A program made the translations under genes and the position numbers. 64,000 bases of DNA from a virus. Under the pieces are notes generated by a model that did not search any database, was not told the DNA's origin, and was given only the letters and a program-made list of their open reading frames with translations. Positions within the stretch are counted from its first letter, which is position 1, and each line of letters opens with the position of its first letter. Shown one piece after another: positions 7,569-36,082 of the stretch. The stretch spans positions 1 through 64,000 of IMG/VR virus record IMGVR_UViG_3300003177_000010; one strand, given 5' to 3'.

Positions 7569-8933
7569 TTAAATAGCAGTTCTACATCTTACCTCTGAAA
7601 AACTAGTATCTCGTAATAGTTTACCGTTTAAATAAACAGGCTCTAGCAGGTCTACCCCTATTTCTTCTTTACGTTTAGTAGAAAATCCATGAGTTAGAGT
7701 ATACTGTAGTGCTAATCTACCTTTTTTAGACTTTTTGTTACCGTGTAGGGGTTCTTTAAAAACGTCATGCCAGATACCAGAAGTATCGCAACGTGCGGAG
7801 GCTTTCATAGCATACTCTAAGTCATCACGCTCTACTTTTTGTAGCAGTCCTCCGCCCATACCAAAGGCAAAGTTCTCTACGGATAATCCGGCATCAATAA
7901 TGTTATACAAAAGCATGGGTAATGATTCATCAGTAATACCGTCTCCTTGTATCACCCTAATATAATCAGGTAGTACTTTATATCCTTTAGAGTTTGTGGT
8001 GTAACCAAACTCTTCCATTAGTATTTTTGCGACCTCAATAGGCATATAAGTAGGGGACCCTGAATCAGGTCTAGCAATTACACGACCCTTTGATGCGATA
8101 ATCTTAGCTTTCAGTTCTTTACCTAGAATATTACGAGCAGCGTTATATACATCATAAGAATCAATAACTACTGCAAGAAGCTTACCTTCTCCACTAAATA
8201 AGTTAATCATATTTTCATAGGCATCTACTTCATTATTCCAAGAAGTCATAGTAGAGTGCTCAGAGGCAGGAATAGAAGTACCGGGGTTAACTGCGTTATA
8301 GTACTTCATAGCTCCGTAAATACCTTCAATAGTATCTGTTCCAACGAAGTTGGTTAGGTGGGCCATACCTCCTAACATAGCACTTTCAGGAGAGGAGACT
8401 CCTCGCGAACCAAAATCATGCAACATGAAAGGTATCAATTCATCTACAGTAGTGTCTGACGACTCATTAATTGCATTTACTAAGTATTTCTTCATTTCTC
8501 TAGACTTAGTAGCTACCGTAGAAGGGTACCACACGCCTCTAAGAATAGCGGTCTCAATATACGACGTTAACCAGTAGAGTCTGGGGTCTGTATTAGTTAC
8601 CCTTACTTGAATATTAGATACAGGCATTACAGTACCTTCTGGTACAGCTTCGATACTCAGAGGTAAGTACCCATCATACTCATTAACAATAATTTCCCAA
8701 CCTTCGCGATTAAAATAACCAATGTAAGGCATTAGTACTTTTTCTGCAAAGTCAATATCCTCCATAGTAATAGGAGTAAGCAAATACTCTTTAATAAATG
8801 CTTGCAGTCCGAAGAACGTAGATTCTTCCGCGCCGCCCCTAGCTTCGATATATGAAGTAAGATATTCTGTATCAGAAGGGTACTGTTCCCATTGAGTAAC
8901 TTTGTATCCGTCAGTTCGTAAAATATTAATCAT
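7569..8933 (-). CDS. nadV: Nicotinamide phosphoribosyltransferase
   Basis: A 454-residue homologue of NAMPT/NadV, which joins nicotinamide and phosphoribosyl pyrophosphate to make NMN, the first step of two-step NAD+ salvage. Family blocks are easy to see: EARGG then FFGLQ, HDFGSRGVSSPES and NFVGTDT, SIPASEHST, VVIDSYDVY, RPDSGSPT, and GMGGGLLQ near the end. Together with the NMN adenylyltransferase at 11724-12722 it forms a complete nicotinamide-to-NAD+ route, the pair known in vibriophage KVP40 and now called NARP2-type NAD+ reconstitution, which counters defence systems that deplete NAD+. The start at ATG 8933 is the only family-consistent one. Confidence 0.93.
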   Translation of the reverse strand: MINILRTDGYKVTQWEQYPSDTEYLTSYIEARGGAEESTFFGLQAFIKEYLLTPITMEDIDFAEKVLMPYIGYFNREGWEIIVNEYDGYLPLSIEAVPEGTVMPVSNIQVRVTNTDPRLYWLTSYIETAILRGVWYPSTVATKSREMKKYLVNAINESSDTTVDELIPFMLHDFGSRGVSSPESAMLGGMAHLTNFVGTDTIEGIYGAMKYYNAVNPGTSIPASEHSTMTSWNNEVDAYENMINLFSGEGKLLAVVIDSYDVYNAARNILGKELKAKIIASKGRVIARPDSGSPTYMPIEVAKILMEEFGYTTNSKGYKVLPDYIRVIQGDGITDESLPMLLYNIIDAGLSVENFAFGMGGGLLQKVERDDLEYAMKASARCDTSGIWHDVFKEPLHGNKKSKKGRLALQYTLTHGFSTKRKEEIGVDLLEPVYLNGKLLRDTSFSEVRCRTAI

Positions 8934-11723: not shown

Positions 11724-12722
11724 TTAGCTAATCCCCAAAAAGTAATCTAAAATGGCATAGTGATCTTCGAAGAGCATAGACCTATCAATTTTACTAAAAG
11801 GAACCCATACAGCCTTTTCAGCATCATCAGACCCTGTAACTTTAGATAGGGTGCTAGTAAAACCTAGGTCAATGTAAAAAGCAGTAGTGATAGTCCTTCC
11901 GCGAGTTGAACGATTAGGGTCATCAAACACTTTTTCTGCCTTGATGGAGCCTTTTAGTACTGGGATAGGTACTTTAAGCTTTGTTTCTTCTTTAAGCTCT
12001 CTAAGCGCTCCGTTCAATAATGTTTCCTCGTGATTTAGGAAACCTCCAGGCAGTGCCCATAAACCTGCACCAGGCGAGGATTTACGTCTAACAAGTAAAA
12101 CATGTCCTGACTGAGTTACTACCGTGTCTACTGTTTGAAAAATTACAGGGTAGGGGGCTTGTTCCCAAGACTGTTTATACTGATCTACTAAACGTACTTC
12201 CTCTCTAATAATATCAAAATCTTTAGTAGTAGTAAAATCTCGTAAGTATTTATTTACAGAGCCAGGTATATAGCAGCTAATAAAATGACCAGCATTTTTA
12301 AATAAATTATTACGAATATCCGTAGCATTAATATCTGCACCCTTTTTATTAGTAACTGCTGGTACAGAATAAGCACCCCAGTTAGGGAAAATATTTAAGT
12401 AATAAGAGGTGCTATCTTTATTATAGCCAACAAGGCTGACCGCGCCAATAGCGACAGTTTCTACTGCTTTAGTAATAGTAGCAACCCATTTGTTATCATT
12501 ATATTGGTAGTCTGCAACAGGAAGAACCACGACCTGTGGAAATACAGACTTGATCATGGCTTTACGTTCAGCAAAAGTGAACGGATTTCGAGCGTTGCGA
12601 GGTGCAAAAGATGAACCTACAACTATAATAACTTGGTCGCTAACTCTAAGAGCAGCATCTACAACGGATTTATGTCCGTTGTGAAAAGGCGAAAAACGCC
12701 CTATAAAAACACTAGTTTTCAT
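11724..12722 (-). CDS. Bifunctional NMN adenylyltransferase / Nudix hydrolase
   Basis: A 332-residue two-domain protein. The N-terminal half begins GRFSPFHNGH (residues 8-17), the (H/T)XGH nucleotidyltransferase signature, with ATDIRNN later; the C-terminal half has a complete Nudix box (GGFLNHEE...RELKEET). This is the architecture of NadM-Nudix enzymes, which condense NMN with ATP to NAD+ and hydrolyse ADP-ribose or related nucleotides. With the nicotinamide phosphoribosyltransferase at 7569 it completes NAD+ salvage; the Nudix half could also clear ADP-ribose left by NADase defence. Confidence 0.9.
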   Translation of the reverse strand: MKTSVFIGRFSPFHNGHKSVVDAALRVSDQVIIVVGSSFAPRNARNPFTFAERKAMIKSVFPQVVVLPVADYQYNDNKWVATITKAVETVAIGAVSLVGYNKDSTSYYLNIFPNWGAYSVPAVTNKKGADINATDIRNNLFKNAGHFISCYIPGSVNKYLRDFTTTKDFDIIREEVRLVDQYKQSWEQAPYPVIFQTVDTVVTQSGHVLLVRRKSSPGAGLWALPGGFLNHEETLLNGALRELKEETKLKVPIPVLKGSIKAEKVFDDPNRSTRGRTITTAFYIDLGFTSTLSKVTGSDDAEKAVWVPFSKIDRSMLFEDHYAILDYFLGIS

Positions 12723-24050: not shown

Positions 24051-24236
24051 TCATTCAAATTCTTTCTTTTTATACGAAGATACTTTCTCCGTTGTTGCAT
24101 GAGCTAACGATTCATGCAAAGTATCTGCATAAGATAACACCTCTGTAAATACTTTCCATTTTGTATACTCATCTTTAGCGTTTATGAATCTACGTTCAAA
24201 AGATTCTCTAGTTACTTTTTGTGCTTCTGCAGCCAT
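24051..24236 (-). CDS. Small helical protein
   Basis: A 61-residue, charged, helical protein (AQKVTRESFERRFINAKDEY) overlapping the end of the RtcB gene by 25 nt. Function unknown. Confidence 0.55.
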   Translation of the reverse strand: MAAEAQKVTRESFERRFINAKDEYTKWKVFTEVLSYADTLHESLAHATTEKVSSYKKKEFE

Positions 24237-25570
24237 GGTTTATATATTTCTCCTGCCCTCATAGAACCTAGGGGCTCTATTTCATCTACTATATGTGCTA
24301 ACTTATAGTCTTTAATTTGTTTACAAACTTCTTTTGCACTCTTGTATGCTCCAGGTAGCTCTGATATATCTGCAGTTCCTGTATAAAAACGACAGTCAAT
24401 GTCCTTAGGTACTAACTCTTCATAAGTCTTACTAATATTATCTTTTTTGGACTGCGTTCTAGAAATATTTCTGCCAGCACCATGCGGAGCAAAACCATAA
24501 GTGTTATCTATATGATGCGTAACTATCAATATAGGCTCCCCCATATTTAAAGGTATAATACGCCTATCTTCCGCCCACTTGTTAAATGTAGGTGTAGCTC
24601 CTTTAGCATGGTGGAAAATATCACCATCTTTAAACACAAAGTTATGCTCGTTCCAAAAGCGGTCTGTGATACTCGGATTATTTAGCTCATGCAATACTTC
24701 TGAATGTACTACAAAGTGGTTAAGTTTAGTCCAAGCTCTTATAATCTGTAGAGCTTCCCAATAATTCTTGCCTTCCTCAGTCTCATAAGGAATCCATGCG
24801 TTCTGTTTTAAGGTATTAGAGGAATATTTAATCCTAAATTCTTCTGCAGCTTTCATTCCTTTTTTATACAATAAGGCTCCAGGTTTTCTAGACCCGTGAT
24901 GAGTAACTAAAGTGATTCTACCTGTGCTTTTAGATCTACCTACAAAGAAAAAGTGGTTACCATCTCCTTGAGTACCTAGATAATCATACATAGCTTGTAT
25001 AATAGTAGTATCATTTAAAAATTTATTATTTCGTGCTCTAGCTATTATTTTATTATTCATAGGTATCTTAATAGCTCTACCTCCTGGGCCAAAGTGCGAG
25101 CGCTTTTGAACTGCGTTCAATATAGTAGCAACATCTATTTCATCTTTAATCTCAGTTAAGTATAAAGAGCAACAAATATTAGAACTATGCATACCTGGGT
25201 GAATAGCATTTTTTGCACTAATTACACCCCCTACTGGTATAGTCCCTACAGGGCCTGAAGGGCAAGCATCAGGCATTACAGAAGCTTTAACTACAGTAGG
25301 AGTAAGAGTAGCTACCTTCATAGTCTCTACTACCGCTTTATAATTAGCTTTTTCATATTTTGTAGTACCTTTATCAAGATTTACTTTAAAAAATGAAGAA
25401 GTTTTCAATGGAATTGAGCGGTCCTTAGTAGCTTCTTTATATCTCCAAGCTAGGCCTTCCATTAAGTCAGTAGTCCTACCTGGTTTATTAGCATAACTTA
25501 ATAATTCCGAGAACCAAGGACCTGGTTTAAAGCCCCAATCAATTAGGTCTTTTCCTGTTATTTTTTCCAA
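24212..25570 (-). CDS. rtcB: RtcB-type RNA ligase
   Basis: A 452-residue RtcB homologue, a GTP- and Mn-dependent ligase that joins 2',3'-cyclic phosphate or 3'-phosphate ends to 5'-OH RNA ends. The metal and GMP blocks are present: GMHSSNICCS, GDGNHFFFVG, HHGSRKPG, HHAKGATP and APHGAGRN, whose His accepts GMP. It would repair tRNAs cut by anticodon nucleases, matching the phage's large tRNA set. No ATG fits; TTG at 25568-25570 follows GGGGAAA. The sequence is divergent from bacterial RtcB. Confidence 0.88.
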   Translation of the reverse strand: MEKITGKDLIDWGFKPGPWFSELLSYANKPGRTTDLMEGLAWRYKEATKDRSIPLKTSSFFKVNLDKGTTKYEKANYKAVVETMKVATLTPTVVKASVMPDACPSGPVGTIPVGGVISAKNAIHPGMHSSNICCSLYLTEIKDEIDVATILNAVQKRSHFGPGGRAIKIPMNNKIIARARNNKFLNDTTIIQAMYDYLGTQGDGNHFFFVGRSKSTGRITLVTHHGSRKPGALLYKKGMKAAEEFRIKYSSNTLKQNAWIPYETEEGKNYWEALQIIRAWTKLNHFVVHSEVLHELNNPSITDRFWNEHNFVFKDGDIFHHAKGATPTFNKWAEDRRIIPLNMGEPILIVTHHIDNTYGFAPHGAGRNISRTQSKKDNISKTYEELVPKDIDCRFYTGTADISELPGAYKSAKEVCKQIKDYKLAHIVDEIEPLGSMRAGEIYKPWLQKHKK

Positions 25571-28427: not shown

Positions 28428-28504
28428 TGGTAGTCCCACCTGGACTCGAACCAGGACTCAAAGCGTTATGAGCGCCCTACTTTAACCGATTAAGCTATGG
28501 GACT
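28428..28504 (-). tRNA. tRNA(CAU), Met or Ile2
   Basis: Complete 77-nt cloverleaf with CCA, acceptor AGTCCCA/TGGGACT, anticodon loop CTCATAA. Identical to 36006-36082 except for the first base. As the phage encodes a TilS-like enzyme, one of its CAU tRNAs may be Ile2. Confidence 0.93.
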
Positions 28505-28510
28505 AAACTT

Positions 28511-28615
28511 TTAATCTTTATCGCAGTCTGGTTTATGTGGAGCATTTCGGCTAAAACACATGCCAAAAGCTACTGCTAAAACAGTGACACTTAGAATTAC
28601 TAGAATATTAATCAT
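28511..28615 (-). CDS. Small membrane peptide in tRNA unit
   Basis: A 34-residue peptide, one membrane helix (residues 3-20) plus a short charged tail. It is preceded by AAAGGAAA and a strong promoter and followed by tRNA(CAU), so it heads a mini-operon of peptide plus tRNA. Confidence 0.55.
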   Translation of the reverse strand: MINILVILSVTVLAVAFGMCFSRNAPHKPDCDKD

Positions 28616-28646
28616 AATTATTTCCTTTTTCTTTTCCGTATAATCT

Positions 28647-28675
28647 ATTATAACGCAAAAATAAGCGTTAAGCAA
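28647..28675 (-). promoter_or_regulatory. Strong sigma70-type promoter
   Basis: TTGCTT, 17 bp, TATAAT on the minus strand; the best example of the island class that starts TTGC(T/C)TAACG. Confidence 0.75.
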
Positions 28676-28683
28676 GTTTAATA

Positions 28684-29154
28684 TTAAAGTATGTTCTTAT
28701 CTAACTCAGTGTCTTCAATCGAAGTACCATTAGCAATTTGCTCTCTAACTCTATCTTTATACGAAATAAAACTACCATCAATAGAGCGTTTGCAATTATC
28801 TTCCATCCAAGCAATATCTGCTTCTAGGTCTACATCTGGCCATATATCTGATAAGTGACATAATTCTTGCATCTTATCTTTAGAAGGAGCTTCTGCATAA
28901 CATATAGCTAGCACTTTCTTACGGTACTCAGTATACCTAGCTAACTGTGCTAGTAGCTTACCCTCATTACTATAACTATTATATAATTTGTCTCTTTTAT
29001 TCCTATAAGTAAGAGAAGCTCTAACCTTATCTACTGTAGCCTCAGGTCCTAAAATTACAGATAAGTAATCTGCCCCTTTGGATATAGCTACTTTTTTAAG
29101 CATCTGGCCCATTTTGGTACTCTGATTAGAATTAACCTTTTTATTAAATGACAC
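28684..29154 (-). CDS. Hypothetical protein, GTG start
   Basis: A 156-residue, mostly helical, basic-then-acidic protein (MGQMLKKVAISKGADYL early; DIAWMEDNCKRSIDG later). No family recognised. The GTG at 29152-29154 is the earliest standard start; the open frame extends a dozen codons upstream without a better one. Leader contains an AGGGTCT/AGACCCT hairpin. Confidence 0.6.
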   Translation of the reverse strand: MSFNKKVNSNQSTKMGQMLKKVAISKGADYLSVILGPEATVDKVRASLTYRNKRDKLYNSYSNEGKLLAQLARYTEYRKKVLAICYAEAPSKDKMQELCHLSDIWPDVDLEADIAWMEDNCKRSIDGSFISYKDRVREQIANGTSIEDTELDKNIL

Positions 29155-29254
29155 CCTAACAGACGATCTTAATGGGTATTTTTCCAGTTACCTGAAAAGC
29201 AGGGTCTCTGGTTTGGTGTCGCTACTACAGACCCTTTTTCGCTCTGTATAAACT

Positions 29255-29283
29255 ATAATAACATTAGAATAAGCGTTAAGCAA
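29255..29283 (-). promoter_or_regulatory. Promoter with adjoining palindrome
   Basis: TTGCTT, 17 bp, TATTAT, with the 15-bp palindrome TTAAACGAAGTTTAA (29286-29300) just before the -35 box. The palindrome also forms the stop codon of the gene upstream. Confidence 0.7.
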
Positions 29284-29285
29284 TT

Positions 29286-29605
29286 TTAAACTTCGTTTAA
29301 AGGCTTCCATAGCTTAGCAAATTTTAATACGTTAGGTAAATCTTTAGCAGGTAGTGGTATAGCACAAGAAGTTTTACCCTCTAAAGTACTGCTTTCATGA
29401 CCTAAGTATACATGATCTAAGTCACTAATTTTGGTAAACTCTTTTTTTTACTCTAACTACACATTTTTTTAAAACTAGTAGTTAGCCATTCTTTATATTT
29501 TTCGTCATCTTTAAATAATAAATGTGTGCCTAATACTGCATGAGCTACTAGAGTAGGAGTCATGTAGTCTGGAAAATCATCTAATACTGCAATATATAGT
29601 TTCAT
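29286..29605 (-). pseudogene. Broken peptidyl-tRNA hydrolase (Pth2-like) gene
   Basis: From ATG 29605 the frame encodes MKLYIAVLDDFPDYMTP..VAHAVLGTH...YKEWL, then stops after a run of seven A. A second frame, entered after a run of eight A, gives VYLGHESSTLEGKTSCA and KFAKLWKPLNEV. Removing one A from each run gives a continuous 105-residue protein resembling the Pth2-like proteins of phages, which free tRNAs from peptidyl-tRNA. Two extra A in two homopolymers suggest decay, slippage-dependent expression or sequencing error. It ends in the promoter palindrome. Confidence 0.65.
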
Positions 29606-29618
29606 TTATGGGTCTATG

Positions 29619-29690
29619 TGGTAGAGTTACTTGGAATCGAACCAAGCCTAAGTAGATATGAGCCACTCGTCAGAACCGTTCTGTAACTCC
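29619..29690 (-). tRNA. tRNA(CAU) with minimal D loop
   Basis: 72 nt with CCA: acceptor GGAGTTA/TAACTCT, anticodon arm AGTGG CTCATAT CTACT, T arm CTTGG TTCGATT CCAAG. The D region AGAAC G GTTCT pairs almost completely, leaving no normal D loop. Met or Ile2 identity is uncertain. Confidence 0.75.
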
Positions 29691-29697
29691 GCTAATT

Positions 29698-29771
29698 TGG
29701 TAGCCCTAAAAAGAATTGAACTTATATCTAACAGTTATCAACTGCTTGCTCTACCATTGAGCTATAGGGCC
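29698..29771 (-). tRNA. tRNA-Ile(GAU)
   Basis: 74-nt cloverleaf with CCA: acceptor GGCCCTA/TAGGGCT, anticodon arm AGCAG TTGATAA CTGTT, T loop TTCAATT. Confidence 0.88.
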
Positions 29772-29772
29772 A

Positions 29773-29934
29773 TTAATGACAAGGAAATCCAACAGAATGG
29801 CGGGTATCATGTTCGAAATCGTGTATATAACTAGAGCTGTAAAACCCAGTAAAAAATATTAAGAATACCCCAAATAAAGCAATAGATACTATTTCTAATA
29901 TAGAGGTATCAACTCTTTGTTTTACTTGTATCAT
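29773..29934 (-). CDS. Small membrane protein in tRNA unit
   Basis: A 53-residue protein with one membrane helix (ILEIVSIALFGVFLIFF, about residues 12-28) and a His-rich tail. It ends two bases before tRNA-Ile. Function unknown. Confidence 0.5.
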   Translation of the reverse strand: MIQVKQRVDTSILEIVSIALFGVFLIFFTGFYSSSYIHDFEHDTRHSVGFPCH

Positions 29935-30047
29935 AATATTATACGCTCTTTCAAAAAATATTTGGAAATAATTTTTTGCAGTTATTGGAAAGGTTGCAGC
30001 CTTGTTTTTATTTTACTTTATCATTCCAGATAAAGGGGTCGGATTCT

Positions 30048-30122
30048 TGGTACTAGATAGAGGATTTGAACCTCGCCCTCAAGGTTCACAGTCTCGCGTA
30101 CTACCTCTACACCATATCTAGC
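30048..30122 (-). tRNA. tRNA-His(GUG)
   Basis: 75 nt with CCA: acceptor GCTAGAT/ATCTAGT, loop CTGTGAA, T loop TTCAAAT. The anticodon stem has one A-C mismatch and the discriminator is A, unusual for histidine tRNAs. Confidence 0.8.
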
Positions 30123-30317
30123 ATATATATTTATAACCTGTATAATCTTAATGCGTGCGACTTACATAACATAGAAAGGAAAAGAATGTTAACGCGCTAA
30201 TTAGTAACTCCTACTGTACTTTCAACAATATCTCGCTGGTTAAGGAGGGCTTTGCATCATGAATTTAAGCTAAGGAGGCGACTTACATATTAAACGAAGT
30301 TTAATAACGCGGGAAAC

Positions 30318-30392
30318 TGGTACTGGATATTAGATTTGAACTAATGCCCTGACGCGTGTAAAACGCCTGCTCTACCACTGAGCTAATCCAGC
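30318..30392 (-). tRNA. tRNA-Val(UAC)
   Basis: 75-nt cloverleaf with CCA: acceptor GCTGGAT/ATCCAGT, anticodon arm GGCGT TTTACAC GCGTC, T loop TTCAAAT. Confidence 0.92.
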
Positions 30393-30619
30393 AAGACATA
30401 GTTATAAGAAAGTTATATAGACAACTCATAACTACTGCAGGCAATGATTACTGCTATTATCCATCGGGCTACGCAGATGACACGGATATTCTTTTACGCA
30501 CATTTTTATTCTGCTGTCGGCTGATTTACTCCAGATCATCTGCAGTCTACATTACAAGATTTTATATAAGTTCTATACAACTTTGTTTATTACTTATAAT
30601 GTAAATTCTCTTATAAACT

Positions 30620-30648
30620 ATAATAACACTTATTTTAGCGTTAGGCAA
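30620..30648 (-). promoter_or_regulatory. Promoter with adjoining palindrome
   Basis: TTGCCT, 17 bp, TATTAT, preceded by the palindrome variant TTAAATGAAGTTTAA (30651-30665). Confidence 0.65.
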
Positions 30649-30912
30649 GTTTAAACTTCATTTAATAAAATCTCTGTTATAATAAAACAATCCCCGGAGG
30701 CTCCGTTGTATTAACCAGAAAAAATATGTCTTAGTCACCACATTGTCCCGGCAACAGAGACTCATATTAAAGTTTATTATAAAGAAAATAACCCCATTAC
30801 ATACTACGTATGCTTGCTGAACCATTACGCCACGGTTCTAGAGCTTTTGTTTTGCTACGCTGGGTAATGCTCTATTACCCTATGGCCACTTGAGTTATTC
30901 TCTTTATAAACT

Positions 30913-30941
30913 ATATTAACATTTATTTTAGCGTTAGGCAA
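30913..30941 (-). promoter_or_regulatory. Promoter with adjoining palindrome
   Basis: TTGCCT, 17 bp, TAATAT, preceded by a decayed palindrome (TTAAATGAAATTTAA). Nearly the same 45 bp as 30620-30665, so the two look like duplicated cassettes. Confidence 0.6.
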
Positions 30942-30964
30942 GTTTAAATTTCATTTAATATCTG

Positions 30965-31405
30965 TTATCTCATTGCATTTAAAATATTGTTATAATTACC
31001 ATTCAAATCTATAGAATCATATTCCAGTCTATTATTACACACGTCGCAGAGTCCGTATTTCGCAGCAAAATCCATACATGATGTTTGCTTACCGCAGCAC
31101 TCGCATTTTTCTCCATATGCCCCATAACCATATGTATCAGCATTAAACTGATTTTTTGCTAATTTACTTTCAGGAAATATACGATTAGTGTTTCTATTCT
31201 CATCAAAATCATAGTATTTATCATGAATAATAGTTGATTTAATTAAATTTTGACTTAATGACATTATATCAAACAAATTTCTTCTTAAAACATTCGAATT
31301 ACTTTCGTATTTTTGACGATAATCTCTGCGATCATTCCACTCAGTAAAACCTATTGTAGGTTTATGAAAAGAACCTCGCAGAGTTTTATCATTTTCAGGC
31401 GTCAC
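30965..31405 (-). CDS. Hypothetical protein with zinc-binding end
   Basis: A 146-residue protein whose C-terminal third has CECCGKQTSC and CDVCNN, probably a zinc finger. GTG at 31403-31405 overlaps the upstream gene by 11 nt. It and the next gene use codons such as CTT, CGT and AAG far more than the rest of the window, which suggests a different origin. Function unknown. Confidence 0.55.
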   Translation of the reverse strand: MTPENDKTLRGSFHKPTIGFTEWNDRRDYRQKYESNSNVLRRNLFDIMSLSQNLIKSTIIHDKYYDFDENRNTNRIFPESKLAKNQFNADTYGYGAYGEKCECCGKQTSCMDFAAKYGLCDVCNNRLEYDSIDLNGNYNNILNAMR

Positions 31406-32162
31406 TTGAGAACCAAGATTTTACCTTTGACATAAATGTTACCTTTTTATTCTTGGCCAGATCTGTGTAAGAAATATTCTTAATTGTTTCAACCTCAATA
31501 AGAGATTCTGAAACAATTCGATTAATGTTATCAATATCTACGCTAATTTTCTTGCCTGGTTTTTCGATGCCAATTTCTCGCATTCTATCAAGCATTTTTG
31601 TAAATGTCAAATCACAGAATTCATCTTCCCAATCTGTGATAAAATACATTCGATCGTGTTTTAAATTAATTTTCTCGTTCAAAAACATACCAAAAACGAT
31701 TGGATCTCTGTTACGGGCGACAAAACTTTTCTGTTCAGGAGTATTGACTTCTTCATCCGTAAAATCTGTATAGATAACAACTAAAAGATCAAAGATTTCA
31801 AGATTACGAGCTTTTTCAATATCTTCTACGTTCATATCAGGAATAACACGAGGAAAGTTTTCAAGCTCAATAATTTTTACAGAATTTTTTGGTGTAATTG
31901 AATCAATAAGTCTAACAACATCTTGGCGATATACAAAATCTTCATATCCTAGAGAGTTAAGAATCATTTCTTTTTCAAGAATTTGCCACATATAAGCTGA
32001 TTTATGGGAGAGATTTTTCTGACCAAGACGTTCCGCCTTTTGAATTTCTTTACCAAGAAATGCCATATTATCTTCAAGCTTTTTATATTCCATTTTGTTG
32101 ATTTTAGTTTTCAACTCAGCGAAATAATCCTTTGGCTCTGTAATATTATCATCTTCTATCAT
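31395..32162 (-). CDS. Hypothetical protein, atypical codon use
   Basis: A 255-residue acidic protein (NMAFLGKEIQKAERLG early, RNRDPIVFGMFLNEKI and FITDWEDEFCDLTF in the middle). It recalls uncharacterised proteins of T4-like marine phages but I cannot name it. Leu is mostly CTT/TTG and Arg CGT, unlike the TTA/CTA and AGA of neighbours. A good ribosome site (AGGAGAG) precedes the ATG. Lies directly downstream of the tmRNA. Confidence 0.6.
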   Translation of the reverse strand: MIEDDNITEPKDYFAELKTKINKMEYKKLEDNMAFLGKEIQKAERLGQKNLSHKSAYMWQILEKEMILNSLGYEDFVYRQDVVRLIDSITPKNSVKIIELENFPRVIPDMNVEDIEKARNLEIFDLLVVIYTDFTDEEVNTPEQKSFVARNRDPIVFGMFLNEKINLKHDRMYFITDWEDEFCDLTFTKMLDRMREIGIEKPGKKISVDIDNINRIVSESLIEVETIKNISYTDLAKNKKVTFMSKVKSWFSSDA

Positions 32163-32199
32163 GTTATCTCTCCTGTTAACTATAGAATAATAATTATAA

Positions 32200-32580
32200 T
32201 AAAGTAGACCCGTTTGGTAATACGGTGGAGTCTATACCGCAAAAAGGATTAGGCAACTAGTGCATAATCTTTAGGTGCTATGTTATCGTTTGCATTTACG
32301 AGTTTTGAGCCGATGTGGTGTGCTCATCCAGTAATCTCCACTTTATCCCCAATGTCATTCGATCCTATTTCGACCCCATTATAAGTATATCAGTTTCAGG
32401 GTTCGAACCCTCTTACGGCCTAAATAAACTGTTATAATCACCAATGGCCACTGTACACTCAGTGTCAATATACTTATGGTGGAGTCGCTGGGTACTGCCC
32501 CCAGGTCATGTCCATTTTTGTATTGTTTCATCAATTACTAGGTGTCTTTAAGGCGCATCCCATTCCTATTAATTTCGTCT
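32200..32580 (-). ncRNA. ssrA: Circularly permuted two-piece tmRNA
   Basis: Minus-strand reading finds a tag frame at 32293-32249, ANDNIAPKDYALVA then TAA, in the setting GTAAAT-GCA-AAC typical of tmRNA. The coding piece begins GGGGTCG at 32377. No matching 3' strand follows it; instead CGACTCC-ACCA lies upstream (32486-32477) and pairs all seven acceptor positions with GGGGTCG, including G3-U70, the alanyl-tRNA synthetase signal. A 5-bp T stem (CTGGG/CCCAG) precedes it, though its loop GGCAGTA is unusual. A 99-nt insert between the CCA and the GGGG is flanked by TAAGTATAT/ATATACTTA and would be excised. tmRNA rescues stalled ribosomes and tags the product for ClpXP-type proteolysis. Outer ends are approximate. 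Confidence 0.87.
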
Positions 32581-32776
32581 TTATACTAAACCGGAGAACC
32601 GGCCTCAGAATAACTAACTCCGAATCTTCACCCTATGAAGGTGATGTAATTTCACATCTCTAACAATGTCAGTCATTAGATTAGTAGGTGGCACTAGTTA
32701 GATAGTATAGCTACCTACTAATTAAGTAAGAACAAGTGCAAAGGCACCTTCGTGGGCTAAGCCTAATAATTCTTAC
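32581..32776. other. Stem-loop-rich spacer upstream of tmRNA
   Basis: No gene. Strong stems: a 10-bp pair ATTAGTAGGT/ACCTACTAAT around 32679-32722, and TAAGTAAGAA/TTCTTACTTA (about 32722-32779) enclosing two small hairpins just after the stop of the next gene. These may be terminator, processing signals or part of the tmRNA precursor. Confidence 0.45.
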
Positions 32777-33250
32777 TTAAAAATCTTCATAGTACAATAT
32801 AGGTTTATTAAAAGCATCCATATATTGCTTCATAACATCAGATAAATCTTCATCTTCAGTAGCTACTGGCGCTACTGGCTCTTCTGTACAAGCTGTAGGA
32901 ATACCTCCTACAGAATATACTTCGTGTATACCTGTTTGATATTCTCCGTCACCTAATGATTTAGTAACACGGCGATAAGACCAAGTAGGCTCATGATGCT
33001 TTACAGTACCTTTACTAATGGTAAATAAAGTTCTACCTTCGTTATTTAAAATTACATAGCCGCCTGTTTTATTATAATGAATTACTCCATCAATATTACA
33101 AGTATTAGCATCAGTACTGGTTATGCCTACTACTTCATTATTAAGTAAAGCACCGAAAGTACATGTAACACTTCGATATTTCTCCTGTATAGTAATAGTG
33201 CAGTCAGTATAATTTACTACTTCTATACATTTACCTAATAGACTTCTCAT
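32777..33250 (-). CDS. Hypothetical protein
   Basis: A 157-residue protein, beta-rich in the first 100 residues with a low-complexity acidic linker (APVATEDEDLSDV) before a short C-terminal helix. No family recognised. Overlaps the upstream gene by 4 nt. Confidence 0.55.
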   Translation of the reverse strand: MRSLLGKCIEVVNYTDCTITIQEKYRSVTCTFGALLNNEVVGITSTDANTCNIDGVIHYNKTGGYVILNNEGRTLFTISKGTVKHHEPTWSYRRVTKSLGDGEYQTGIHEVYSVGGIPTACTEEPVAPVATEDEDLSDVMKQYMDAFNKPILYYEDF

Positions 33251-33540
33251 TTTGTTTTCCTGTATTTAGGTTCAATTTTTTCGTAAGTTTTGGGAAAAAA
33301 GCGTGTATAAGACTCTTTTGTAGTTACTTGTAAAAGACCTTGCTCATCGCATAATGTACATGGTTCTTTATAGGTCTCTGTTTGAAAATCATGATAATTA
33401 ATTACCTTTTCTTTTTCAATAAAACCTATACCGCCACAGTTATTACACAACTTATCCTCTACAGTAGTACGTATATATACAGATATATCACCATATAGAC
33501 CTATAATATATTCGTCTGCTGGTAGCTCTTTTACAACCAT
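33247..33540 (-). CDS. DnaJ-type zinc finger protein
   Basis: A 97-residue protein with CNNCGGIG and CTLCDEQG separated by about 30 residues, two CXXCXGXG-like repeats as in the DnaJ zinc finger, so one zinc site is likely. There is no J domain. Role unknown, perhaps protein or RNA contact. Confidence 0.6.
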   Translation of the reverse strand: MVVKELPADEYIIGLYGDISVYIRTTVEDKLCNNCGGIGFIEKEKVINYHDFQTETYKEPCTLCDEQGLLQVTTKESYTRFFPKTYEKIEPKYRKTK

Positions 33541-33616
33541 TATATTCCTTTCTTAAGAGTAATATAGATATTATTCCATTATTGGCACTCTATTTTATTT
33601 TGTTCTACGCACTAAT

Positions 33617-33692
33617 TGGTTGCGGGAGTAGGACTCGAACCTACGACCTCTTGGTTATGAGCCAAGCTAGCTGCCGCTGCTAACATCCCGCA
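33617..33692 (-). tRNA. tRNA-Met(CAU), initiator-like
   Basis: 76 nt with CCA. The D arm AGCAGC-GG-CAGCT and the arrangement of the acceptor (GCGGG/CCCGC offset by one) are like initiator tRNA, and the anticodon arm is CTTGG CTCATAA CCAAG. The first position would pair (T1-A72) instead of the usual initiator mismatch, and only two G-C pairs flank the loop, so initiator function is uncertain. Confidence 0.8.
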
Positions 33693-33710
33693 TTAATTTC
33701 TTTATACTCC

Positions 33711-33739
33711 AATGTAATACTAAAATAAGCGTTAGGCAA
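33711..33739 (-). promoter_or_regulatory. Promoter with adjoining palindrome
   Basis: TTGCCT, 17 bp, TACATT on the minus strand, preceded by TTAAACGAAGTTTAA (33741-33755), for the initiator-like tRNA. Confidence 0.55.
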
Positions 33740-33776
33740 TTTTAAACTTCGTTTAATAAGTACTTCAGCTATAAAT

Positions 33777-33864
33777 AAGCCCTACTACAAAGTCATTTTA
33801 GTGACAGCTCACGTCATCCATATATAGCACCTGCAGACACTATGTACATTTTGTAGTAGGACTT
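33777..33864 (-). other. 15-bp stem with 58-nt structured loop
   Basis: AAGCCCTACTACAAA (33777-33791) pairs over 15 bp (one G-T) with 33850-33864; the enclosed region can form smaller hairpins (GTGAGC/GTCAC). It starts six bases after the 3' end of tRNA-Tyr and could be a terminator, a processing element or a small RNA. There is no poly-T tract. Confidence 0.5.
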
Positions 33865-33869
33865 AACTT

Positions 33870-33954
33870 TGGTGGAAGAGTGTCGAGTCGAACGACACGC
33901 TATTACACTCCGGTTTTACAGACCTTCTGCGGATACCCTCCGCTGAACTCTTCC
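33870..33954 (-). tRNA. tRNA-Tyr(GUA)
   Basis: 85-nt class II tRNA with CCA: acceptor GGAAGAG/CTCTTCC, loop CTGTAAA, T arm TGTCG TTCGACT CGACA. The upper two pairs of the anticodon stem are mismatched. Confidence 0.85.
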
Positions 33955-33962
33955 ATTATTTC

Positions 33963-34101
33963 TTATAGGATAAAGGACGTTACTTCCTTTTGACTCTCCT
34001 TTACGCTATTCAACGAAGTTGAATAATAACACGTCTATAAGCCTGCCACGGAGATCTCTTATAGTTGGCGGTCACTTAACTCTAAGTAAGTAATCCTATA
34101 A
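33963..34101 (-). other. Closed 139-nt structured element
   Basis: TTATAGGAT and ATCCTATAA at the two ends pair over 9 bp and enclose CTATAAG/CTTATAG and TTCAAC/GTTGAA hairpins. It begins just upstream of tRNA-Tyr. No gene is present. Confidence 0.35.
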
Positions 34102-34205
34102 AAATAAGCAGTTATCACTCTACTCGTAAATACTACTAAAAAATAATAAATCTTGTAGTAACTGCTCCGATATACTGTAGATTTTTTTGATCGGTTTATG
34201 ACTGT

Positions 34206-34403
34206 CTACGAACCGGAAGTCATTTTTAGTATATCGTTTAATTGTTCTTTACTATGTATAGCTGCTTGAATTGCTATATCAAAATCTTTAGCATTTTTAG
34301 TATTACATAAGCAATAAAAAACTACGTTTTTATGTAACCCGCTGGAAATAGCATTTCCTAAGGCAGAAGCCATAATGTCATAATCAGAAATATCTTTATA
34401 CAT
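34206..34403 (-). CDS. Hypothetical protein
   Basis: A 65-residue helical protein of unknown function; overlaps the next upstream gene by 8 nt. Confidence 0.5.
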   Translation of the reverse strand: MYKDISDYDIMASALGNAISSGLHKNVVFYCLCNTKNAKDFDIAIQAAIHSKEQLNDILKMTSGS

Positions 34404-34671
34404 ATTGATACTTAATAGTGCTTAGGACTAATATACGTAGAATTATTTGCTGTAATTCTAAAGGAAAGTCAGCTGGTTTACCCTCTAAATAATTAATAAT
34501 CCTTGTTACAGACTTCTCATACCTTAATAATTCTTTTCTCTTTTTTCTATCTTCACATTTCTGAGAGCTACTCGCAAAATACTTTCTTTGCTCTTTGAAA
34601 TACGCAATATCTGTGTAGCTATAGCTACTAGCTAAATCCATTCTTAGTACTTTAGGTATATTATAGCGCAT
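34396..34671 (-). CDS. Hypothetical basic protein
   Basis: A 91-residue, Lys/Arg/Tyr-rich helical protein (QKCEDRKKRKELLRYEKSV). Starts at ATG coupled to the upstream stop (TAATG). Function unknown. Confidence 0.5.
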   Translation of the reverse strand: MRYNIPKVLRMDLASSYSYTDIAYFKEQRKYFASSSQKCEDRKKRKELLRYEKSVTRIINYLEGKPADFPLELQQIILRILVLSTIKYQYV

Positions 34672-34832
34672 TATTTAATAATCTCTGCTGCGATACATAC
34701 ACCTCTAACTTGTGTTGGCTCTAACTGTGTGAGAGCTGCTTGACACGCTTCAAAGCTGTCTAGTTTCACTGTAGTTATTCCGTTATGGGATATAAATAAC
34801 ACCAGAATATAAGCACCTGCAGTATTAATCAT
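34671..34832 (-). CDS. Small hypothetical protein
   Basis: A 53-residue protein with a beta-type first half (AYILVLFISHNGITTVKL) and FEACQAALTQLE helix, a common layout of tiny phage proteins of unknown role. Coupled to the next gene. Confidence 0.5.
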   Translation of the reverse strand: MINTAGAYILVLFISHNGITTVKLDSFEACQAALTQLEPTQVRGVCIAAEIIK

Positions 34833-34947
34833 TATGTTTCTTCTAAAAAATTAAATGCCTGAGAACCTCTTCATCTCTCACATTGTTCTGTAATTAAATA
34901 GCTATCAGGTAAGCACTATAAACCACTAAATTTATACTTGTATTATG

Positions 34948-35023
34948 TGGCGAAACTGAAGGGGATTGAACCCTCGACCTCCTACGTGACAGGCAGGCGC
35001 TCTAACCACTGAGCTACAGTTCC
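34948..35023 (-). tRNA. tRNA-Asp(GUC)
   Basis: 76-nt cloverleaf, G73 and CCA: acceptor GGAACTG/CAGTTTC, anticodon arm CCTGC CTGTCAC GTAGG. Confidence 0.94.
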
Positions 35024-35114
35024 AAAAAATTGCTACAGCAGATGTTAATTAGGGCCACCTTACGAATTTGAACCACGAAACATTCCACTCATTTTGCTCT
35101 ACTCGATAATTAGT

Positions 35115-35192
35115 TGGTCCTGCCGACGAGATTCGAACTCGCATTGGTCTCATTGAAAGTGAGGGTTCCTAGTCCAATTAGAAGACGGCAGG
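35115..35192 (-). tRNA. tRNA-Glu(UUC)
   Basis: 78 nt with CCA: acceptor CCTGCCG/CGGCAGG, anticodon arm CCTCA CTTTCAA TGAGA, T loop TTCGAAT. Confidence 0.92.
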
Positions 35193-35650
35193 ATATACTT
35201 ATGCTAGCTAGACACATATTTAACTAGTAATTTCTTACTGCTACAGGCATTAGGTAGTTGACACGGAGTGTCACGGCGCAACATTTAAGGGTATCCATAT
35301 ACACAAACAGAAGTATTATCGAGAGTGAGAATTGAGCCTAATATCTCTGTACTGTTATTAGGCCAATCCGCACAACGCATTAATTCATAGGCTATTACTT
35401 ATAAAAGCTGCTGTATACAAATTTAAAGCATTGCTGCTACCTAATTTTTACCTTTAAACTATTACTCTCCAATAATAGTGCTAACGTACTTAGTTAAAGT
35501 AGTAATTAGGCGCTGTTATTCCTTATACAGTAGGATTGAGTATTCTTTATCTTTACAGCTTATATCGGTTCAGGGGATACTATCCTAATAGCTACGTATA
35601 ACTAAAAGCATAAAGAAATGAGTATCTTCATTTAATTACGACCTGAATGT
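35193..35650. other. Noncoding hairpin-rich spacer
   Basis: No open frame supported. Shows a TGACAC/TGTCA hairpin near 35258-35273 and CCTAATA/TATTAGG near 35338-35364. Confidence 0.45.
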
Positions 35651-35727
<77 letters not shown>

Positions 35728-36005
35728 AATGAGTTAGGTTCTACTGCGAGACAGCGACTTAGCCAAACCTACGCGTTTGGTTCCATGAATTCGTATAGCT
35801 ACTATAATTTCTAGAGTTAGTAGCTATTTGAGGTATTGAATAGTTAATCCTGTAGTGTATACCGCACACTTTTATATTTAATTATTAAGGTTCAATAAAC
35901 ATAATAAACAAACCTACGATCACTCCCGCAATAGAGATTATATGATATAGTTCACATAACAAAACTATGTACCGTATTGAGTAACTATCTCAATTTAGTA
36001 TATTT

Positions 36006-36082
36006 TGGTAGTCCCACCTGGACTCGAACCAGGACTCAAAGCGTTATGAGCGCCCTACTTTAACCGATTAAGCTATGGGACC
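36006..36082 (-). tRNA. tRNA(CAU), duplicate of 28428-28504
   Basis: Identical over 76 of 77 positions to the tRNA at 28428; only the first base differs (G here, A there). Anticodon CAU; Met or Ile2. Confidence 0.93.

Follow-up and report, generated by a model that had tools for sequence, protein, structure and literature searches.

A probable two-piece tmRNA of alphaproteobacterial type, with an enlarged intervening sequence, in a tailed-phage genome

Phage-encoded permuted tmRNA is already a known kind of element: the two-piece tmRNA of phage Melnitz has been published, 53 were found among 18,146 phage genomes in 2022 (PMC9004378), and the 2025 tmRNA database holds 79 phage sequences (PMC11915505). 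Because Melnitz and about 50 others have been described, a permuted tmRNA in a phage is not new in itself. The same arrangement occurs in isolates of alphaproteobacterial phages (V10, DSS3P8, MD18, DSS3_MAL1, RcXuper, RcRudolph, RcSimone-Hastad, EliS-L02, and Cp1R7A-A1). Here we analyzed a 64,000-nt stretch of viral DNA (the window), which forms part of an IMG/VR record of 112,794 bases; what is new in it is the LVA tag end, the replaced 3′ region, and the 99-nt intervening sequence (IVS). Its piece order, acceptor–IVS–coding, is that of the alphaproteobacterial two-piece tmRNA (RF01849, the Caulobacter ssrA type) and of RF04321 (tmRNA_permuted).

The minus strand of the window from 32543 to 32205 is a circularly permuted tmRNA gene. 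The Rfam covariance model RF04321 matches it with 106.6 bits (E = 8.8e-20; cut-off 47) over the full length of the model (1–213), RF01849 matches with 82.4 bits (E = 8.7e-21; cut-off 50) over model positions 40–270, and ARAGORN calls the locus “tmRNA*” (permuted) on the minus strand with the tag ANDNIAPKDYALVA; the match is far beyond chance. A first-pass annotation, made from the letters alone, had proposed a permuted two-piece tmRNA here and named a covariance-model match over both pieces as a check; the two Rfam models supply that match and, with ARAGORN, bear out the proposal and assign the minus strand. The acceptor piece (32477–32543, minus strand), delimited by the RF04321 and RF01849 alignments, comprises a T arm with loop GGCAGUA and the 3′ acceptor strand, its 5′ end at 32543 being approximate. 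The 3′ acceptor strand, CGACTCC followed by ACCA, ends at 32477, with CCA encoded at 32479–32477. Sequence extraction places the 99-nt IVS between the two pieces at 32378–32476, and the coding piece (32205–32377) contains the 5′ acceptor strand, a D-like region, a helix 2 strand, the tag frame, and a 3′ pseudoknot; both models cover this piece down to 32249, and the pseudoknot lies beyond. The 5′ acceptor strand, GGGGTCG (32377–32371), thus lies downstream of the 3′ acceptor strand, and the two form seven pairs (G1-C72, G2-C71, G3-U70, G4-C69, U5-A68, C6-G67, and G7-C66). These extracted strands confirm both the earlier end coordinates, 32477 and 32377, and the earlier seven-position pairing with its G3-U70 signal. 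On folding, the 5′ part of the acceptor piece pairs with the coding piece, and cofolding of the two gives the acceptor stem plus a long helix 2 at −64 kcal/mol; helix 2, linking both pieces, is seen in the RF01849 alignment and in the cofold, for a single sequence and with no covariation.

The T loop GGCAGTA had been described as a departure from consensus; this was wrong, as it is the usual alphaproteobacterial tmRNA loop. The alpha_tmRNA (RF01849) T-loop consensus is GGCgGUA, and GGCAGTA itself serves as the T loop in 56 of 117 permuted tmRNAs from viruses and 6 of 110 from cells; it departs solely from the tRNA consensus.

The tag reading frame found by ARAGORN, with its stop, occupies 32293–32249 on the minus strand (GCA AAC GAT ... 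GTT GCC TAA). It begins with an Ala resume codon and ends in a ClpXP-type hydrophobic tail, of which the final VA is atypical: all 274 compared tags (168 viral and 106 cellular) end in AA, and the LVA of the window is unique among them. LVA is a known, working degradation signal in Escherichia coli (PMC3511798), so the tag should still be read. The distinct tag end would also suit an RNA that acts on the host, as a competing tmRNA that retags proteins or diverts SmpB and ClpXP, or that recycles host proteins into amino acids; such a role has been proposed for Melnitz (PMC9004378), and the tag-less tmRNA of phage DS6A inhibits endogenous tmRNA according to work cited in PMC11915505. However, neither the tag frame nor its stop is damaged, and a tail of LVA directs degradation in E. 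coli (PMC3511798), so that ordinary tmRNA function is sufficient, and we consider action on the host rather unlikely.

Beyond the tag stop, at 32205–32241 (minus strand), folding predicts an H-type, PK2-like pseudoknot with stems S1 UGCGGU/ACCGUA (six pairs) and S2 UAGACUC/GGGUCUA (seven pairs), which is equalled by 3 of 300 dinucleotide shuffles. The alpha-type 3′ part (RF01849 model positions 271–355) has no match in the window, the model stopping at the tag stop (270 of 355), and most other phage copies examined match RF01849 to or near the model end. This part of the window is unrelated in sequence to the RF01849/RF04321 type, and a different pseudoknot, itself convincing, apparently stands in for the alpha-type 3′ region.

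The record carries large terminase, portal, fused protease/major head protein, tape-measure, and tail genes, together with DnaB helicase, DNA polymerase, SbcC/D-like, thymidylate synthase, and ribonucleotide reductase genes. It is a tailed-phage genome, and the tmRNA is phage-borne rather than host contamination, in agreement with the first-pass annotation. The tmRNA sits within a phage array of 20 tRNAs (ARAGORN); anticodon CAT occurs in four of the tRNA genes of the array (28428–36082, minus strand). The next gene downstream of the tmRNA, at 31395–32162 (minus strand), has a match in phrog_10081 (E = 4.9e-42), a PHROG with the label transposase, and none among Pfam families. RNA repair and NAD salvage genes accompany the large tRNA array: an RtcB-like RNA ligase (24212–25570), a nicotinamide phosphoribosyltransferase (7569–8933), and a cytidylyltransferase-like/Nudix protein (11724–12722), all on the minus strand. 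No SmpB was found in the 112.8-kb record, which may be incomplete; tmRNA function would therefore depend on the host. Terminase relatives at ~70% identity were short fragments, none with a tmRNA over the cut-off; among relatives of a neighbouring gene at five loci, a single 150-kb phage carries a tmRNA, at another position and with an IVS of 12 nt, and the rest have none; and exact searches for the tag and IVS of the window gave no match. Since neither this particular tmRNA nor its IVS had a relative in these searches, conservation of this copy is without support.

The IVS of the window is about three times longer than in bacteria. IVSs were extracted with one identical pattern from viral contigs and alphaproteobacterial genomes. 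The median length is 81 nt in the viral contigs (70% above 50 nt), some short members of which may be host DNA, versus 29.5 nt in the alphaproteobacterial genomes (8% above 50 nt). With identical sequences removed, 80 of 109 viral and 9 of 110 cellular IVSs exceed 50 nt (Fisher p = 1.2e-24), and in a second cellular sample (240 genomes, searched with RF04321) 4 of 150 best matches span at least the 291 bases of the window's match. Short IVSs are present in some viral contigs (e.g., L012 and L079); of the 20 listed viral contigs that reach 20 kb and yielded an IVS, 17 have one longer than 50 nt, and in the ten isolated phages examined every IVS measures 88–142 nt. Judged from these sequences, IVS enlargement is a phage trait. 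This bears on a further explanation, that the gene is a recently captured host ssrA, decaying and useless to the phage. The record in which no SmpB was found, the divergent 3′ end, the unique tag end, and the failure of searches to find close relatives would all fit such decay; on the other hand, the gene has an intact acceptor, T arm, helix 2, and tag frame and an intact new pseudoknot, the IVS is of phage-like rather than host-like type, and permuted tmRNAs with long IVSs recur in isolates of several host genera, which argues for long residence in phages. We regard capture and decay as very improbable.

Long viral IVSs have a nearly universal terminal helix (median score 11 among 106 unrelated sequences, versus 4 in shuffles) and carry two kinds of insert. 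The first consists of small ORFs whose Shine-Dalgarno site falls within the helix strand; four IVS ORF families are under purifying selection (pN/pS 0.23, 0.15, 0.25, and 0.39), and a later scan added six ORF-bearing IVSs. In phage Melnitz, a relative of one ORF family stands as a separate gene immediately upstream of the tmRNA; the IVS ORF is therefore a real gene, able to sit inside or outside the spacer. A conserved 35-aa ORF (MDEVILWEFRKRCVEYICINNYSIRHARLIMMGAK; pN/pS 0.23) starts in the IVSs of L017, L088, L092, L093, L095, L115, and L014, and in most members its stop is a TAG within the conserved tmRNA sequence GGGGGCGAAATAG, so that tmRNA maturation would make its message nonstop. A small protein family (...MFKLYITWSICADIILIAGIIALILGYGKISF; pN/pS 0.15), apparently membrane-spanning, is encoded in the IVSs of L045, L063, L105, L074, L053, L116, L026, and L477, several of which have an overlapping mini-ORF upstream. 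The second kind of insert is non-coding, with two families showing compensatory changes, one with five two-sided pairs in three sequences and the other with nine two-sided cells and 100% pairing in six sequences. Across non-ORF inserts, simple folding energy hardly differs from shuffles (mean z −0.26), and pseudoknot potential exceeds the shuffled level (mean z −0.51, s.e. 0.13). In the IVSs of V10, DSS3P8, and RcXuper (L417, L418, and L421), an apparent pseudoknot is surrounded by shared motifs, UACGC and others like GGAAGAGGC, which suggests that these IVSs may form one RNA family; the window has a comparable AAGAGGG.

These features raise the possibility that phages of Alphaproteobacteria use the spacer of the two-piece tmRNA as a cargo bay, from which excision during maturation would release a second functional RNA or a mini-messenger, the 99-nt IVS of the window being one such RNA. 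Maturation would turn ORFs that extend into the 5′ piece (...MGAK-stop in GGGGGCGAAATAG) into nonstop messages, a conversion that would tie IVS ORF expression to trans-translation. We found no published description of selected cargo in phage tmRNA spacers in the open-access literature. The cargo pattern is strong for the phage class and the copy in the window is only a candidate; for the whole proposal, including this copy, our confidence falls somewhat short of even.

The IVS of the window has both features of the phage class, a length above 50 nt and a terminal helix; this 11-bp helix extends the acceptor stem and scores 11, where shuffles have a median of 4. The IVS lacks an ORF with an evident ribosome-binding site; its one frame starts with TTG, runs for 29 codons, and has no evident Shine-Dalgarno sequence. 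The best pseudoknot (GUGGCC/GGCCGU with CAGUUU/AAACUG) is equalled by 50 of 300 shuffles and has no relatives from which covariation could be read; neither simple folding energy nor pseudoknot potential is significant against shuffles. Since no relatives were found, a cargo role for this IVS is unproven. ARAGORN at a loosened 80% threshold gives a doubtful tRNA-Cys(aca) in the IVS; a complete tRNA there was rejected, with no Rfam match even at E up to 10. The IVS does hold a perfect T-arm-like hairpin, AGGGUUCGAACCCU, near the terminal helix, and might on this account be a tRNA-like processing module, in which hairpin and helix together would offer RNase P an additional substrate, so that the CCA of the acceptor piece is freed. 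Of 88 unrelated phage IVSs that have no ORF, 10 contain a T-arm-like hairpin, versus 1.3 in shuffles; the 6-mer with the strongest enrichment is GGTTCG (8 versus 1.0); and in MD18 the T arm AGCGG-UUCGAAA-CCGUU directly adjoins the terminal helix. However, an earlier, cruder enrichment test gave 6 versus 3.0, none of 17 fresh IVSs has such a hairpin (~2 expected), the motif is absent from most IVSs, and Rfam finds no tRNA in the IVS of the window or of MD18. The enrichment, strong in the discovery set, weak in the cruder test, and absent in the new set, is a lead only, and we think a processing module distinctly unlikely.

Given the observed gene architecture, pairing, tag, pseudoknot, enlarged IVS, and phage context, we conclude that the element is very probably a phage-borne permuted two-piece tmRNA of alphaproteobacterial type, with a phage-style enlarged IVS, that rescues stalled ribosomes with host factors. 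The proposed maturation, charging, and tagging steps follow established tmRNA biology. The tmRNA would be transcribed together with the surrounding phage tRNA array, and the acceptor stem and 11-bp IVS helix would bring its halves together. Host RNase P would cut 5′ of G32377, 3′ processing would expose the CCA at 32477, and the acceptor stem and helix 2 would keep the two mature pieces paired; the excised IVS may then have a role of its own. Host AlaRS would charge the tmRNA via G3-U70, host SmpB and EF-Tu would deliver it to stalled ribosomes in infected cells, and rescued products would receive a tag ending in ALVA, a target for host ClpXP. The phage might benefit either because ribosome rescue is maintained while host messages are destroyed or because protein turnover is steered by its own tag.

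Compared with the RF01849/RF04321 type, the window has in common the G3-U70 acceptor stem, the T loop GGCRGUA, the D-like region GAAAUAGGAUCGA, the PK1 region, and the ANDN tag start; it differs in its IVS (99 nt rather than ~30 nt) and in its tag end (VA rather than AA). Melnitz ssrA (Methylophilales phage, MZ577097) is, like the window, phage-encoded, permuted, and alpha-type with an enlarged IVS (142 nt). The Melnitz IVS (L349, just upstream of the coding start at 1674), within an SsrA that is itself annotated, contains an unannotated 48-codon frame (MFKWLSKTRLVVIT.../MFKWLSKTRLVVITRDYFRERNRKADAKIPKYLSG...), whereas that of the window has no RBS-bearing ORF, and Melnitz differs further in a glutamine riboswitch downstream of its ssrA. 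The 48-codon frame is partly similar to the IVS ORFs of L062 and L098. The Ruegeria/Phaeobacter/Rhodobacter phages (V10, DSS3P8, MD18, DSS3_MAL1, RcXuper, RcRudolph, and RcSimone-Hastad), whose permuted tmRNAs are mostly unannotated, resemble the window in a non-coding IVS (97–111 nt) with a terminal helix, although their IVS sequences are unrelated to its own; MD18 and DSS3_MAL1 also have a T-arm-like hairpin, theirs near the IVS 3′ end. V10, DSS3P8, MD18, and DSS3_MAL1 encode a GOLLD RNA shortly before the tmRNA, and Rfam finds none in the window. In the roseobacter phages L417, L418, L419, and L420, which have GOLLD RNA upstream, the tmRNA is unannotated in three of four. The new pattern is one of enlarged phage tmRNA spacers with selected content, mostly unannotated even in Melnitz, DSS3P8, and RcXuper; these three grow on laboratory hosts, which makes the roles of spacer and tmRNA directly testable. 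The window adds to these systems one more phage whose two-piece tmRNA looks functional and has a tag of its own.
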